Virus record (IMG/VR): IMGVR_UViG_3300030118_001248
Span: 1-27,586 of that record
Strand: one strand, 5' to 3'
Source: a virus
DNA: 27,586 bases
Position numbers and translations under genes: made by a program. Below are positions 1,584 through 22,707 of this stretch, in pieces (positions within the stretch are counted from its first letter, which is position 1; the number at the start of each line of letters is the position of its first letter). A model generated the notes under the pieces. That model ran no database searches. It saw nothing but the letters and a program-made list of their open reading frames with translations, and had not been told where the DNA came from.

Positions 1584-1650
1584 GTAATGTTCTATTACTG
1601 CGCTTTGGAACACTCCAGAGCGCATTTGTGGAAACATTACCAAAACCAAA
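1584..1650 (+). promoter_or_regulatory. Structured leader element, copy 1
   Basis: The gap between the first two early genes contains a 10-bp stem (1599-1608 with 1615-1624, one G-U pair, loop AACACT). An outer 8-bp pairing, GTAATGTT (1584-1591) with AACATTAC (1633-1640), encloses it. A 25-nt A/C-rich segment at 1626-1650, starting TTGTGGAAACATT, is repeated exactly in the next gap at 1945-1969. No T-run follows the hairpin, so it is not a standard terminator. The competing local pairing GTAAT (1584-1588) with ATTAC (1594-1598) excludes the outer stem. Confidence 0.6.
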
Positions 1651-1665
1651 ACGAGGATAGAAAAA

Positions 1666-1902
1666 ATGCTAATTAGTGAACAAAAATTAGGCGCGCTCCT
1701 GGAAGTAATGACCAAAGAAGTGGGCGTCTGTTCTGTGGCGAAGGCGCGACGTGCGATAAAGAGCTGGGCAATTCAGCGCGGTAGAGTTACATTCGATACA
1801 CTAGGCCAACTAGAACATATCAGCGACGAGGATTTGCTTTGTCTGCGTAGATTCGTAAACATAGCCGTGACCGAGCGCGGTCTTCTGGATGACCAGGTAT
1901 AA
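1666..1902 (+). CDS. Small early protein, 78 residues, unknown function
   Basis: The ATG at 1666 follows GAGG (about 1653-1656) and the structured leader. The product is soluble and mixed-charge with a basic centre (KARRAIKSWAIQRGR, residues 25-39) and an acidic C-terminal half. Predicted helices could form a small DNA- or protein-binding domain, but no known motif is evident. Both flanking gaps carry the same leader element, so this gene and the next are probably controlled together. Takeover protein is an inference from position only. Confidence 0.7.
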   Translation: MLISEQKLGALLEVMTKEVGVCSVAKARRAIKSWAIQRGRVTFDTLGQLEHISDEDLLCLRRFVNIAVTERGLLDDQV

Positions 1903-1919
1903 GGGAGCAATGCTCTATC

Positions 1920-1969
1920 AGTACCCATTGCATTCAGTGGGTACTTGTGGAAACATTACCAAAACCAAA
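1920..1969 (+). promoter_or_regulatory. Structured leader element, copy 2
   Basis: A hairpin of 11 bp with one G-U pair (AGTACCCATTG 1920-1930, loop CATT, CAGTGGGTACT 1935-1945) is followed at once by the same 25-nt segment found at 1626-1650 (here 1945-1969). The hairpin arms differ in sequence from copy 1 but the architecture is the same: hairpin, conserved A/C-rich strand, ribosome-binding site (AAGGA 1971-1975), ATG. Upstream, GCAATGCTCTAT (1908-1919) resembles GTAATGTTCTAT of copy 1, so the two gaps look duplicated. Confidence 0.6.
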
Positions 1970-3814: not shown

Positions 3815-4113
3815 AAACAATAGCAGACATCGCAAAATCTGCGAACCTGGAAGAAAAGACGCTAAGGAAGTATATAACCGGCTTTGTGCCTTTTTACTTC
3901 GACGTCTTTGACATTGGCGAAGGAATATATAGCACATTCTACACCGACGGCGACGGCGGGCTTATGCTCTTTGAGGGCTATTGCGAAACGTTCGAGGAAC
4001 AAGGGGTGTCTGTGCGTCTTATAGACTGCAATTATTGTGATATATCCTATAGCCAAATGGCGACAATAATGCAACAATTGGAAGAAGCTAATAACTTAGA
4101 GGATTTGGAATAA
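3811..4113 (+). CDS. Small acidic early protein with possible N-terminal HTH, 100 residues
   Basis: Starts in a 4-nt overlap with the HTH gene and ends in a TAATG overlap with the next. The first 22 residues (TIADIAKSANLEEKTLRKYI) read like a short helix-turn-helix. The rest is acidic and aromatic (FYFDVFDIGEGIYSTFYTDG), with a helical acidic end (MQQLEEANNLEDLE). No named family. An acidic anti-host or DNA-mimic role is conceivable but not shown. Confidence 0.65.
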   Translation: MKTIADIAKSANLEEKTLRKYITGFVPFYFDVFDIGEGIYSTFYTDGDGGLMLFEGYCETFEEQGVSVRLIDCNYCDISYSQMATIMQQLEEANNLEDLE

Positions 4114-5460: not shown

Positions 5461-5550
5461 ACAGATTCTTTAGGTTATGTTTAATAAATACTTTAAGCAT
5501 ATACTTAAAGAGTCTTTAGTAAACTTTAGTAACTATTGGAGTGAAAACTT
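5461..5550 (+). promoter_or_regulatory. Candidate middle promoter/operator before the replication genes
   Basis: The gap before the ssDNA-binding protein gene contains a 7-bp dyad, CTTTAAG (5491-5497), 6 nt, CTTAAAG (5504-5510). It overlaps TATACT (5500-5505), a good -10 match. No clear -35 box lies at the right distance. CTTTAGTA occurs twice just downstream (from 5514 and 5524), and TTGGAGTG (5536-5543) gives the ribosome-binding site. A promoter activated or repressed at the dyad is plausible. Confidence 0.4.
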
Positions 5551-5922
5551 ATGGCAGTATTAACTGGCAAAGCCGCTTTTGTTAACCTAACTGAGACTGA
5601 ACAGTATCAAGGACAAGATACTGGAAAGTACACTTTAACTGTCACTTTGGACGATAGCACTGCACAGATGTTGTCTGAACAGGGTGTCAAGCTACGAAAC
5701 TACGAAGGTACAGCCCAGCGTAAGTTTAGTAGTAAATACCCCGTCAAGGTCATTGATGCAGAGGACAACCCGTTTATTGGCCCTATCACTAGGGGTTCAA
5801 CGGTACGTCTTAGCTACAAACTCAGCCCAGAACCACATCCCATTCACGGTATGTCTACTTACCTGAATGCTGTACGGGTTGTTGAGCTTGCCGAAGATAC
5901 GAGCATAGATGACGAGCTTTAA
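5551..5922 (+). CDS. Single-stranded-DNA-binding protein (short gp2.5-like)
   Basis: Predicted to coat single-stranded DNA at the phage replication fork. The 123-residue protein has beta-rich OB-fold-like segments (VLTGKAAFVNL, GKYTLTVTLDD, SYKLSPEPHP, STYLNAVRVVEL) and an acidic C-terminal tail, EDTSIDDEL, the feature by which such proteins contact polymerase and helicase. It is much shorter than T7 gp2.5 (about 230 residues), like the reduced versions in marine phages. Position, directly before the primase-helicase with a 14-nt overlap, supports the call. The family cannot be proved by a single motif. Confidence 0.7.
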   Translation: MAVLTGKAAFVNLTETEQYQGQDTGKYTLTVTLDDSTAQMLSEQGVKLRNYEGTAQRKFSSKYPVKVIDAEDNPFIGPITRGSTVRLSYKLSPEPHPIHGMSTYLNAVRVVELAEDTSIDDEL

Positions 5923-17636: not shown

Positions 17637-19115
17637 TTAGAATTGTGATAAAATATCGGCTACTTGTGCGTCTAGGTCGTTTTCCCTTGCACCTGTTCGC
17701 AGTTCTACAGCTTTCCTATAGTCTCCTTCAGCTATCGCAGCAGCAACTTCATTTGTAATGGGGTCAGCAGCAATACTTGAAGTTCTAGCGGAAATAAAAT
17801 CAACCGCTGCTTTTCCTTCTAACTCAAATTGAGTCATTTCATCAAGAATAGCATAAGTGTTTATCATTTTTTCCACAAAAGCATTAGGCGTCGCAAAATC
17901 AGTAAAAACAGGGTTGAGTAGCTTCATTGCTCTTTCGTACTCATCATCTTTAATAGCTGCGCCTGATAAAGCTCTAGCAATGCCTTCAGTAATAGCATCT
18001 CTACTCTGTTGAATTACAGAAGCTCTAGTCGCTGCTTCCTCGCCACCCGCTAAAGCTGCTGCAAGCCTAACTGGGTCAGAAGCCGCTAAAAGAAAATCAG
18101 CAGCAAGCTGTTCAGGGCTTCCTGATTCAGACATAACATCAGCAAGCCTAGAGACTCCACCTTTAGCTCTGTTGAGTGCTGCTCTTTTTACAGCTGCGCC
18201 TTTAGGAGTAAAAGGGCTTGTTCTAGTACCGCCAGCAGCGCCAGCTTTTCTTACTAAATTTATACCAAATTTGTTGTCAAGCTGAGATGGAGTGTACAAT
18301 TTATCATCACCAGTTAAGTCAACTCTGTACTTCCCTGTTTTACTTTCAAATTCAAGACCTATTTCTTGTTCATCTCCACCGTCTTTTGTTATTACCCAGT
18401 TCTGAGTAGTGAAACTTGAGTCAGCTTGTTCATTAGCTCCTTTACCTAAACCTTCAACATCTTCAAGGTATTTTTGAAAATCTTTAGCGTTATAGTCATC
18501 AAAATCTCCATCAAACACCCGTGTTATAAACTCAGTGCTTGCTTTCATACTATCAGCTATAGCAATTTTAGTTTGCCTAGAGGTAAAAGTTCCTTGTTGT
18601 TCTGTTTTTTCTAACGCTCTACGCTCTAATTCTTTTTGTATTTCTTCTTGAGCGTCTTCTACATCAAGACCACCGCCTGTAAATAAATCACGTTGTTTCT
18701 TTAATCCTAGCTCTCCAAGAGTTTTTGTAATCTGGACTCTGGTTTTTCTAAGAGCTTCAGCATCTAATTGTGTTTTTCTTAAAGTTGATGCTCTGTCCTG
18801 TAGCTGTAAAGCTAACTCAATAGCTTGTGGAGTACCTAAGTTTGCGAATATCTGAGCCTGTTGTTGTAGTCCCTCTACTGAAGTTTTATCTTCAACGCCT
18901 TTTAACTCAGCTTGCAGCTTCTCAGCAGGAGTCCTCATGTCCCTACCAAGCAAGCCACCAACATTACGTGCCAGCATACCACCAAGGCTTGCAGGGGCAG
19001 CACCAGCGCCCGTAAGTGAACTACGAGCAGCAGCTTGAGCAGGAGAGTCAGTTAGAGTTGAACCAAACTCTCTTATGGAGCTTAATAGCCCTGGACTAAA
19101 TCTTAAACTTGCCAT
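17637..19115 (-). CDS. Probable internal virion protein, 492 residues
   Basis: The N-terminal region is flexible and Gly/Ala/Ser-rich and includes GGMLARNVGGLLGRDMRTP (about 45-63). A helical segment follows (EKLQAELKGVEDKTSVEGL, about 64-82, then QQAQIFANLGTPQAIELALQ, about 84-103), a pattern I recall from internal virion proteins of marine podoviruses. A long coiled-coil stretch, a beta-like middle segment (WVITKDGGDEQEIGLEFESK) and a helical C-terminus complete it. It overlaps the upstream gene by TAATG and lies 12 nt before the last late gene. Confidence 0.6.
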   Translation of the reverse strand: MASLRFSPGLLSSIREFGSTLTDSPAQAAARSSLTGAGAAPASLGGMLARNVGGLLGRDMRTPAEKLQAELKGVEDKTSVEGLQQQAQIFANLGTPQAIELALQLQDRASTLRKTQLDAEALRKTRVQITKTLGELGLKKQRDLFTGGGLDVEDAQEEIQKELERRALEKTEQQGTFTSRQTKIAIADSMKASTEFITRVFDGDFDDYNAKDFQKYLEDVEGLGKGANEQADSSFTTQNWVITKDGGDEQEIGLEFESKTGKYRVDLTGDDKLYTPSQLDNKFGINLVRKAGAAGGTRTSPFTPKGAAVKRAALNRAKGGVSRLADVMSESGSPEQLAADFLLAASDPVRLAAALAGGEEAATRASVIQQSRDAITEGIARALSGAAIKDDEYERAMKLLNPVFTDFATPNAFVEKMINTYAILDEMTQFELEGKAAVDFISARTSSIAADPITNEVAAAIAEGDYRKAVELRTGARENDLDAQVADILSQF

Positions 19116-20410: not shown

Positions 20411-20572
20411 CTATTGCTTAGCTTTGCCAACAACTAAGGCGAAGTACTCAAGGACTTTATATGCTTTAGCAACCATAGCATCATCCTTGGGTGTTGGGGT
20501 TACTGCTGTAATTGCTGATGCTAATGCAACGGCTGCTGTAGCAATGTTAAAAATGTTGAGTAGTAGTTCCAT
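20411..20572 (-). CDS. Small membrane-associated protein, 53 residues
   Basis: The minus-strand ATG at 20572 overlaps the tail-fibre stop (TAATG) and the frame ends 12 nt before the next ATG. The N-terminus LLLNIFNIATAAVALASAIT (residues 3-22) is one hydrophobic helix. It is followed by VTPTPKDDAMVAKAYKVLEY (24-43), a soluble tail that I recall from short unnamed phage proteins. A holin-like or lysis-accessory role is possible; there is no direct evidence. Confidence 0.65.
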   Translation of the reverse strand: MELLLNIFNIATAAVALASAITAVTPTPKDDAMVAKAYKVLEYFALVVGKAKQ

Positions 20573-22707
20573 TAAGGTAGCTCCGGTTCTTCTGGCTTAA
20601 GGGGTTCAACAATTACTTTTCCGTTGTCATCAGTCCACCCTGTATTTAGCATGTGCTGGTCTTTTCTATCACCAACAACCATCCAAGAAACAGTGTCAGT
20701 GCAGGTATTATCTTGCGCTGTAATAGTCAGTGTATTTCCAGATACAGAACCTTTGACTGCTGTCCATCCTGATTCGTTAGAAGTAAAACACTGAACATCA
20801 TCACAAAGAACATCAAAGGTTCCTTCAGTCATTCCTGCTTCGGTGTCGATATTTACCGTTGCAGAACCCGCGACCAAATCCACTGTGCCGCGATAGATGA
20901 GGTCGGCTTTCGGGCCTTCGATGAAAGAGTGGACAAGATGATGGGTATCAGTCTTTGCAGGCAATGGATGGTCAATTTTGAACGTACCACCGCCTTTGGA
21001 AATATCGCCAACGATGGTTAAGTCCCCATCACCGTTCAGAATCATTCGACCACTGTTTCCGCCAGTATTGAAATACATTTGGTCAATCGAATGGTAATAG
21101 TAAACAGCCCCCGCACCGCGAGTTGTATCTGAAAACTGGATACCGCCTGCGTTGCTAGTTCCACTACGGACATCTATCAGAGTCGTACCGCTGTTTTCCA
21201 AGATAAACATATCCGACGCATCTGTAGAGTAAGTACCGGCAAACGCTGCTTTTTTGACATGAAGAAGATTATCCGGCGCTGTCTCGCCTATGCCGACTTG
21301 TTCTGAACTATTTATAGTTATGGCAATAGCATCTGCGTTATCGTCAATTCCGTTACTGGTGAACGTAGTAAACGTACCCGCCGCAGCAGTTGAGCCACCA
21401 ATAACTGTGCCATCAATCGTGCCTCCATCTATATCAGGCGTATTGATGTCTGGGCTTGTCAGAGTCTTATTCGTAAGAGTCTGTGAGCCAGTGAGCGTTG
21501 CTACTGTACTATCAATAGCAAAAGTCACAGCATTACCAGAGCCACTAGTATCAATACCAGTACCACCAGTAAACGTCAGAGTCTCTGAGTCTAGGTCTAT
21601 GCTCAGTGCGCCACCAGAGTCTGCTTGGAAGTCTAAGTCCTGTGCAGTTACTTGAGAGTCTACATAGGCTTTGATAGACTGCTGAGAAGCAATACCTGTA
21701 GCACTGTTGGAAGACATATCGTCTTCATCAAGGAATGCTTTACCGTCTAGGATATTTAGCTCTGCTGCTGTAGACGTAACACCATCCATAATGTTCAGTT
21801 CTGCTGTAGTTGCAGTAACTCCGTCCATTATGTTTAGTTCAGCAGTAGTCGCTGTAACACCATCTAAGATATTTAGTTCTGCCGCAGTGCTAGTGACACC
21901 ATCTAAAATGTTAAGTTCAGCAGTAGTGGACGTTACACCGTCAAGTATATTTAACTCAGCGGCAGTAGACGTTACTCCGTCCAGAATGTTTAGTTCTGCG
22001 GCTGTACTGGTTACTGTAGTACCGTTGATAGACAGTGCATCAGTTTCTAGAGTACCGTCAACATCTACATCACCTGAGATGTCTAAAGAAGCTACCACTG
22101 CTGTACCTGTGAGAGTAGGAGCAGTTAGTGTCTTATTAGTCAGCGTCTGAGAGCCTGTAAGGGTCGCTACAGTGCTGTCTATTGTTAGGGTTACTCCAGT
22201 GCCTGATGCAGTAGAATCAATCCCTGTGCCGCCTAGAATGCCCAGAGACTCGCTGTCTAAGTCAATGTCAATGCTGGACGAACCGTCAGTAACATCTAAG
22301 TCTTGCGCAGTTACTTGGCTGTCAACGTATGCCTTGATTGACTGTTGAGTAGCCAGTTTAGTGGCACTATTGGAAGACATGTCATCTTCATCTTTAATGC
22401 CAGTTACAGTAGCTCCATCACCCGCAATGTTGATGCTGGTGTTTGCTACAATGGTTGTACCTACGATACTGGAAGCACTGGATGCACCAATGGTCGTACC
22501 GTCTACAGCACCACCGTTAATGTCCGCTGTGGGTATAGTTACTGTGCCAGTGAACGTAGGGCCAGCAATGTTTGCCTTAGTTGCTGACGCTGTTGCAATG
22601 TTATTAAACTCTGTATCAATCTCAGTGCCTTTGACAATCTTGTTAGCGTTGCCTGAAGGTAAGGAGTCCTTAGATGCAAAGTTAGTTGTTTTTGTATAAT
22701 CAGTCAT
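20572..22707 (-). CDS. Repeat-built tail fibre / host-recognition protein, 711 residues
   Basis: Probable receptor-binding fibre. The N-terminus (MTDYTKTTNFASKDSLPSGN) is of the kind that attaches to the tail. A block of about 93 residues (DEDDMSSNSAT... to ...TLTNKTLTAP, 106-196) appears a second time from residue 327. Between the copies lie seven consecutive 13-residue repeats of T-S/A-T-A/T-AELNI-L/M-DGV (233-323), common in marine phage fibres. The C-terminal part has GGGTFKIDHPLPAKTDTHHL, a segment seen at the ends of many phage fibres, then a beta-rich tip ending PEEPELP. The C-terminal third is richer in CG than the rest, which suggests an acquired tip. Confidence 0.85.
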   Translation of the reverse strand: MTDYTKTTNFASKDSLPSGNANKIVKGTEIDTEFNNIATASATKANIAGPTFTGTVTIPTADINGGAVDGTTIGASSASSIVGTTIVANTSINIAGDGATVTGIKDEDDMSSNSATKLATQQSIKAYVDSQVTAQDLDVTDGSSSIDIDLDSESLGILGGTGIDSTASGTGVTLTIDSTVATLTGSQTLTNKTLTAPTLTGTAVVASLDISGDVDVDGTLETDALSINGTTVTSTAAELNILDGVTSTAAELNILDGVTSTTAELNILDGVTSTAAELNILDGVTATTAELNIMDGVTATTAELNIMDGVTSTAAELNILDGKAFLDEDDMSSNSATGIASQQSIKAYVDSQVTAQDLDFQADSGGALSIDLDSETLTFTGGTGIDTSGSGNAVTFAIDSTVATLTGSQTLTNKTLTSPDINTPDIDGGTIDGTVIGGSTAAAGTFTTFTSNGIDDNADAIAITINSSEQVGIGETAPDNLLHVKKAAFAGTYSTDASDMFILENSGTTLIDVRSGTSNAGGIQFSDTTRGAGAVYYYHSIDQMYFNTGGNSGRMILNGDGDLTIVGDISKGGGTFKIDHPLPAKTDTHHLVHSFIEGPKADLIYRGTVDLVAGSATVNIDTEAGMTEGTFDVLCDDVQCFTSNESGWTAVKGSVSGNTLTITAQDNTCTDTVSWMVVGDRKDQHMLNTGWTDDNGKVIVEPLKPEEPELP
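21739..22011 (-). repeat. Seven 39-bp tandem repeats inside the tail-fibre gene
   Basis: Each unit encodes one 13-residue T-S/A-T-A/T-AELNI-L/M-DGV repeat; the seventh ends in GK instead of GV. The copies agree closely as protein but differ at many third-codon positions, so the array is not a recent slip duplication. Copies 5 and 6 share ATT and IM, suggesting one later duplication. Copy number could change by recombination and alter fibre length. Confidence 0.85.

Follow-up and report, generated by a model that had tools for sequence, protein, structure and literature searches.

Two intercistronic hairpins in the early transcript of an IMG/VR virus, each of which contains the same 25-nt repeat, are probably RNase III-type processing sites of a variant resembling the R sites of T7. 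The window (the whole stretch of DNA that was analysed) covers 27.6 kb of a 33.6-kb IMG/VR record. Its early and replication genes are encoded on the + strand, and the large ORFs that follow one another on the − strand, one with a phage adaptor domain, are taken to be structural genes. The DNA polymerase A is nearest to those of Pelagibacter phage HTVC103P (48%) and other marine phages. The early operon lies on the + strand upstream of the replication genes, behind a promoter-like site TGTACA-16-TATACT (1352–1379, +) from a consensus scan whose match count equals chance expectation, and a search of the record for a phage RNA polymerase returned no match but is uninformative, since its control returned none either. 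Early gene 1 (55 aa, 1416–1583, +) ends in a TAA stop at 1583, one base before the first hairpin, and is followed by early gene 2 (78 aa, 1666–1902, +) and early gene 3 (60 aa, 1985–2167, +), both without a family, and by a gene-88-like gene of phrog_2554 (2158–2907, +). Upstream of the operon, the divergent intergenic region at 1062–1316 contains ten CTCAAG/CTTGAG hexamers, among them three copies of ACTTGAGAA and two of CAAGTGAAAT that are found nowhere else in the window, and these are possible operator or origin repeats.

The 25-nt repeat TTGTGGAAACATTACCAAAACCAAA is exact at 1626–1650 and 1945–1969, as the first-pass annotation had reported; no third copy was found in the window with up to three mismatches allowed, and shuffled sequences gave no chance copies. 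The same annotation placed a strong hairpin of unrelated sequence before each copy, which holds true, with stems of 10 and 11 bp, which should be corrected to 11 bp in both. It further described the repeat as a conserved single strand following the hairpin, a model that fails: about half of the segment pairs back upstream of the hairpin, and most of it serves as the 3′ arm of a longer hairpin. Each element is a single interrupted hairpin of about 20–23 bp spanning 54–58 nt, built from the base as a lower stem, a bulged A, a GU-rich step of 4 bp, a small mismatch, an 11-bp upper stem, and a 4-nt loop. In element 1, 12 of the 25 repeat nucleotides (1628–1631 and 1633–1640) are predicted by folding to pair with 1584–1595, which contradicts a single-stranded segment; the 5′ arm of the lower stem is GTAATGTTCTAT (1584–1595, +), and the 3′ arm consists of GTGG (1628–1631) and AACATTAC (1633–1640) on either side of the bulged A1632. 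Its upper hairpin (1599–1624, +) pairs 1599–1609 with 1614–1624 around the loop ACAC (1610–1613). Element 2 (1907–1960, +), a covariance model hit of 75 bits, follows the same plan with a less perfect lower stem, whose 5′ arm GCAATGCTCTAT (1907–1918) has two C.A mismatches and whose 3′ arm is made of GTGG (1947–1950) and AACATTAC (1952–1959) flanking the bulged A1951. The upper hairpin of this element (1920–1945) pairs 1920–1930 with 1935–1945 around the loop CATT (1931–1934), giving the apex TTG....CAG, and the two upper stems are unrelated in sequence.

Only the last ∼10 nt of the repeat, CAAAACCAAA, are free, as an A/C-rich leader at 1641–1650 in element 1 and at 1960–1969 in element 2 (both +). 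The starts of the elements at 1584 and 1907 form the hairpin base just 3′ of the upstream stop codon, and the ribosome-binding sites (CGAGGA and AAGGA) lie unpaired a few bases past each element. For both elements, every one of 200 dinucleotide-shuffled sequences was less stable (z −8.8 and −4.8), and the 60-mer at 1583 is the most stable across the whole 27.6 kb.

The conserved fold is that of the mRNA strand. In an alignment of 34 distinct copies, 93.2% of the cells are paired, and the covariation score is 0.332 compared with 0.157 ± 0.010 after shuffling and no more than 0.106 with the partner shifted; both members have changed in 9 of the 23 pairs. U.G pairs are conserved at columns 12–41 (34/34), 22–31 (32/34), and 10–43 (23/34), and the reverse strand forms a much poorer hairpin because these pairs become A.C mismatches there; the main-family covariance model scores the gene strand at about 40–78 bits and the reverse strand at 17–37 bits. 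Function, with RNA processing among the candidates, had been proposed in the first-pass annotation from the single-strand model; a functional RNA, and processing above all, is supported by covariation, mRNA-strand specificity, intercistronic placement in many phages, and equivalence to T7 sites, while that model is not.

Dozens of marine phage contigs in IMG/VR carry the same element, between the stop codon of the upstream gene and the ribosome-binding site of the next. An exact 16-nt scan of IMG/VR recovered several intercistronic copies of like architecture, and the 25-nt segment, which the first-pass annotation had suggested seeking in other phages, is present there, with a hairpin preceding its intercistronic copies. 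The family comprises 54 rows (42 non-duplicate) obtained with covariance model R1 and looser patterns; an upstream ORF stops at −24 to +7 nt of the element start in 43 of the 54, frequently with the stop codon within the lower stem, and the next start is at most 75 nt away in nearly all. The downstream genes belong to many unrelated families, so no particular gene accompanies the element. Paired elements 260–450 nt apart were seen in seven distinct phages including the one in the window, and the one to two copies seen per phage are lower bounds because the contigs are fragments. The element pattern was absent from 84,980 cellular genomes, blastn of the region against isolates gave one short coding match only, and Rfam covariance models gave no relevant match to the element. 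The family is new and without an Rfam entry, and it is most likely a T7 R-site-like variant of RNase III-type processing sites. An unusual upper stem, TGCGCTYTGGWACACWYCAGAGCGCA, is common to element 1 of the window (1584–1641) and one copy in a different phage (L227, 1353–1410), and this second upper-stem type may have been exchanged between phages.

RNase III processing sites of T7 and T3 (R0.3, R0.5, R1, R1.1, R1.3, and others) reportedly go back to the work of Dunn and Studier, and most known intercistronic processing sites in the T7 style come from T7-like phages of enterobacteria. A study that set 22 nt as the minimum length of a double-stranded target (PMC5371410) cites the cleavage of T7 early RNA by RNase III. 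Like T7-type sites, the window elements have an interrupted stem of at least about 20 bp with an upper stem of ∼10 bp and a small loop, and they lie between the cistrons of an early transcript, 5′ of the following ribosome-binding site. The T7 and T3 sites have interrupted stems of about 18–25 bp and upper stems of 9–13 bp with a small loop, and they too lie between early genes with a ribosome-binding site just 3′ and occur as several related copies per genome. In contrast, the window copies do not have the signature ACTC .. TTTATGAT, the interruption in their family is a 1×1 (or 3×3) mismatch plus the bulged A whereas that of T7 is an asymmetric loop, the conserved apex TTG..CAG belongs to the window family, and one to two copies were seen per phage compared with about ten in T7.

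As a positive control, the element descriptor matched 8 of 10 T7 intercistronic gaps, which we take to be the RNase III sites R0.3, R0.5, R1, R1.1, R1.3, R3.8, R4.7, and R18.5; the T7 record carries no annotation of these. The descriptor also matched 9 of 16 gaps in Pseudoalteromonas phage Slicky01, where most of the matches carry the T7 signature ACTC..stem..CTTTTATGATTAT, and 8 of 25 gaps in CHOED. Not all relatives share the feature, as the counts in HTVC103P (1/11 gaps), HTVC115P (0/7), and CRP-2 (0/6) indicate. Slicky01 and CHOED (DNA polymerase 45% and 40%) have early intercistronic hairpins of equal position and geometry, and the lower stem of one Slicky01 site (CTAGTGTTAT..ATAACATTA) resembles that of the window family, but their hairpins have a T7-type internal loop; they are unannotated in the records. 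A literature search on RNase III sites in marine phages found nothing useful.

A second covariance model (R2), built from 11 T7, Slicky01, and CHOED sites, mainly those of T7 and Slicky01, recovered a T7 site absent from its training set (18502–18574, in the gap before gene 6.5) and matched early hairpins between genes in the relatives L192, L203 (E 1.2e-5), L194 (1.5e-5), and L304 (5e-4). R2 did not match the window elements up to E 5, and these are therefore not filed as T7-type members, the claim being one of similar working; R1 likewise gave no match to T7 or Slicky01. The matches in L192, L194, and L203 directly precede homologues of the gene behind a related hairpin in L160/L165; that hairpin precedes the gene-88-like gene in L162, and the same gene follows a window-type element in L001, L256, L228, and L232, with the element or an equivalent hairpin also directly 5′ of the homologue in L290. 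In L304 (614–667), the family apex CCCATTG..CAGTGGG is combined with a T7-type match.

If the elements are processing sites, host RNase III would be the most likely enzyme to bind and cut them, on the 3′ side close to the interruption just below the upper stem, around 1625–1632 and 1944–1951. Such cutting would divide the early transcript into separate messages, with one break following gene 1 and another following gene 2, and would give genes 2 and 3 a defined short A/C-rich 5′ leader, AAACAUUACCAAAACC...AAGGA, as in T7, with possible effects on stability or translation. Hairpins next to tRNA genes, at 4008–4140 in L171 (a distant family-like hairpin separated by 8 nt from a downstream phage gene for tRNA-Cys) and at 28759–29125 in Slicky01 (L275; unannotated T7-type processing hairpins on both sides of a tRNA-Arg gene), would suit a processing role.

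The apex is the observation that sits least easily with RNase III alone, since TTG-N4/5-CAG is conserved across several subfamilies and a pure double-strand enzyme does not require it. Scanning with the apex alone added more subfamilies, which differ in the lower stem and keep the geometry and placement. It is conceivable, if rather doubtful, that the elements represent a novel RNA family of marine phages in which a specific factor, from the phage or the host, recognizes the conserved apex UUG-N4/5-CAG and the bulged A; if true, a portable 54-nt module would supply whichever early gene is inserted with a regulated message of its own, and processing by RNase III would account for no more than a part of this. 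A sequence-specific regulatory RNA, in which a phage or host protein binds the apex, the bulged A, and the GU-rich step on a stem serving as scaffold, or a nut- or put-like antiterminator acting on RNA polymerase, would account for the conservation of the apex, the bulge, and the U.G pairs and for one to two copies early in the operon. This is unlikely, however, as the equivalent intercistronic hairpins of further relatives (L160 at 955, L217 at 1347, and L192) lack the apex and keep the geometry, copies lie between genes and not solely at the operon head, and T7-type sites occupy the place of the element in relatives. Relatives with 58–70% identical polymerases similarly have early intercistronic hairpins of equal size with different apex sequences, which suggests that such sites evolve by replacing sequence while keeping shape. 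Shape alone is not specific and is not used as proof because stable loose hairpins also occur inside genes; when strong hairpins between and inside genes were compared over 79 loci, same-strand coding matches were nearly as frequent per base.

The elements could also be hairpins that are never cut and that block 3′ exonucleases, shield the 5′ end, or separate the translation of neighbouring genes, consistent with a stop codon that lies within the lower stem or at its base, a ribosome-binding site just outside, and the lack of a terminator U-tract 3′ of the stem. This too is improbable, as it leaves the fixed 11-bp upper stem, the conserved interruption, and the equivalence with T7 cleavage sites unexplained. 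Different flanking genes on both sides across phages recall gene cassettes and would fit a linker acting as DNA, a recombination boundary for small early gene cassettes with the hairpin incidental or formed in single-stranded DNA, but U.G pairs conserved on the mRNA strand, together with compensatory changes, indicate pairing in RNA, and any conserved linker can yield cassette exchange as a by-product, making this explanation highly improbable. Processing remains the preferred reading and suggests that T7-type processing is widespread in ocean phages, bringing a large group of uncultured ones within the range of T7-style intercistronic sites. A portable linker before unrelated early genes could help explain how accessory genes are gained without loss of expression. 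The covariance model and the many aligned copies provide a resource, and the cultured relatives Slicky01 and CHOED make the processing idea directly testable.

Several other known systems were compared and set aside. The put antitermination RNA of HK022 has two adjacent stem-loops and each element has a single hairpin. The promoter hairpin of the N4 virion RNA polymerase has a stem of about 5 bp and a 3-nt loop in DNA, whereas the element has an 11-bp stem, a 4-nt loop, and strand-specific U.G pairs. An intrinsic terminator was rejected as the hairpin is followed by CAAAACCAAA with no U-tract and is absent from the terminator scan. The ESAS of cluster K mycobacteriophages, whose function is unknown (PMC3203893), resembles the element in being an inverted repeat with a variable spacer just upstream of start sites in a subset of genes, but it has its own 13-bp start sequence GGGATAGGAGCCC and 17-bp imperfect repeats of other sequence; membership in ESAS/SAS was rejected, as the 13-bp sequence is absent by the start codons, where the leaders are ACGAGGATAGAAAAA and TAAGGAACTAAGACA.

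Repeats of other kinds were observed elsewhere in the window. The large − strand ORF at 20572–22707 contains tandem 39-nt repeats (13 codons) at 21742–22053, a 98-nt repeat is found at 21632 and 22295, and the product of this ORF is likely a repetitive structural protein. A run of short repeats resembling ACTTTAAG / CTTTAGTAA occupies the intergenic stretch 5485–5540, before the gene at 5551.
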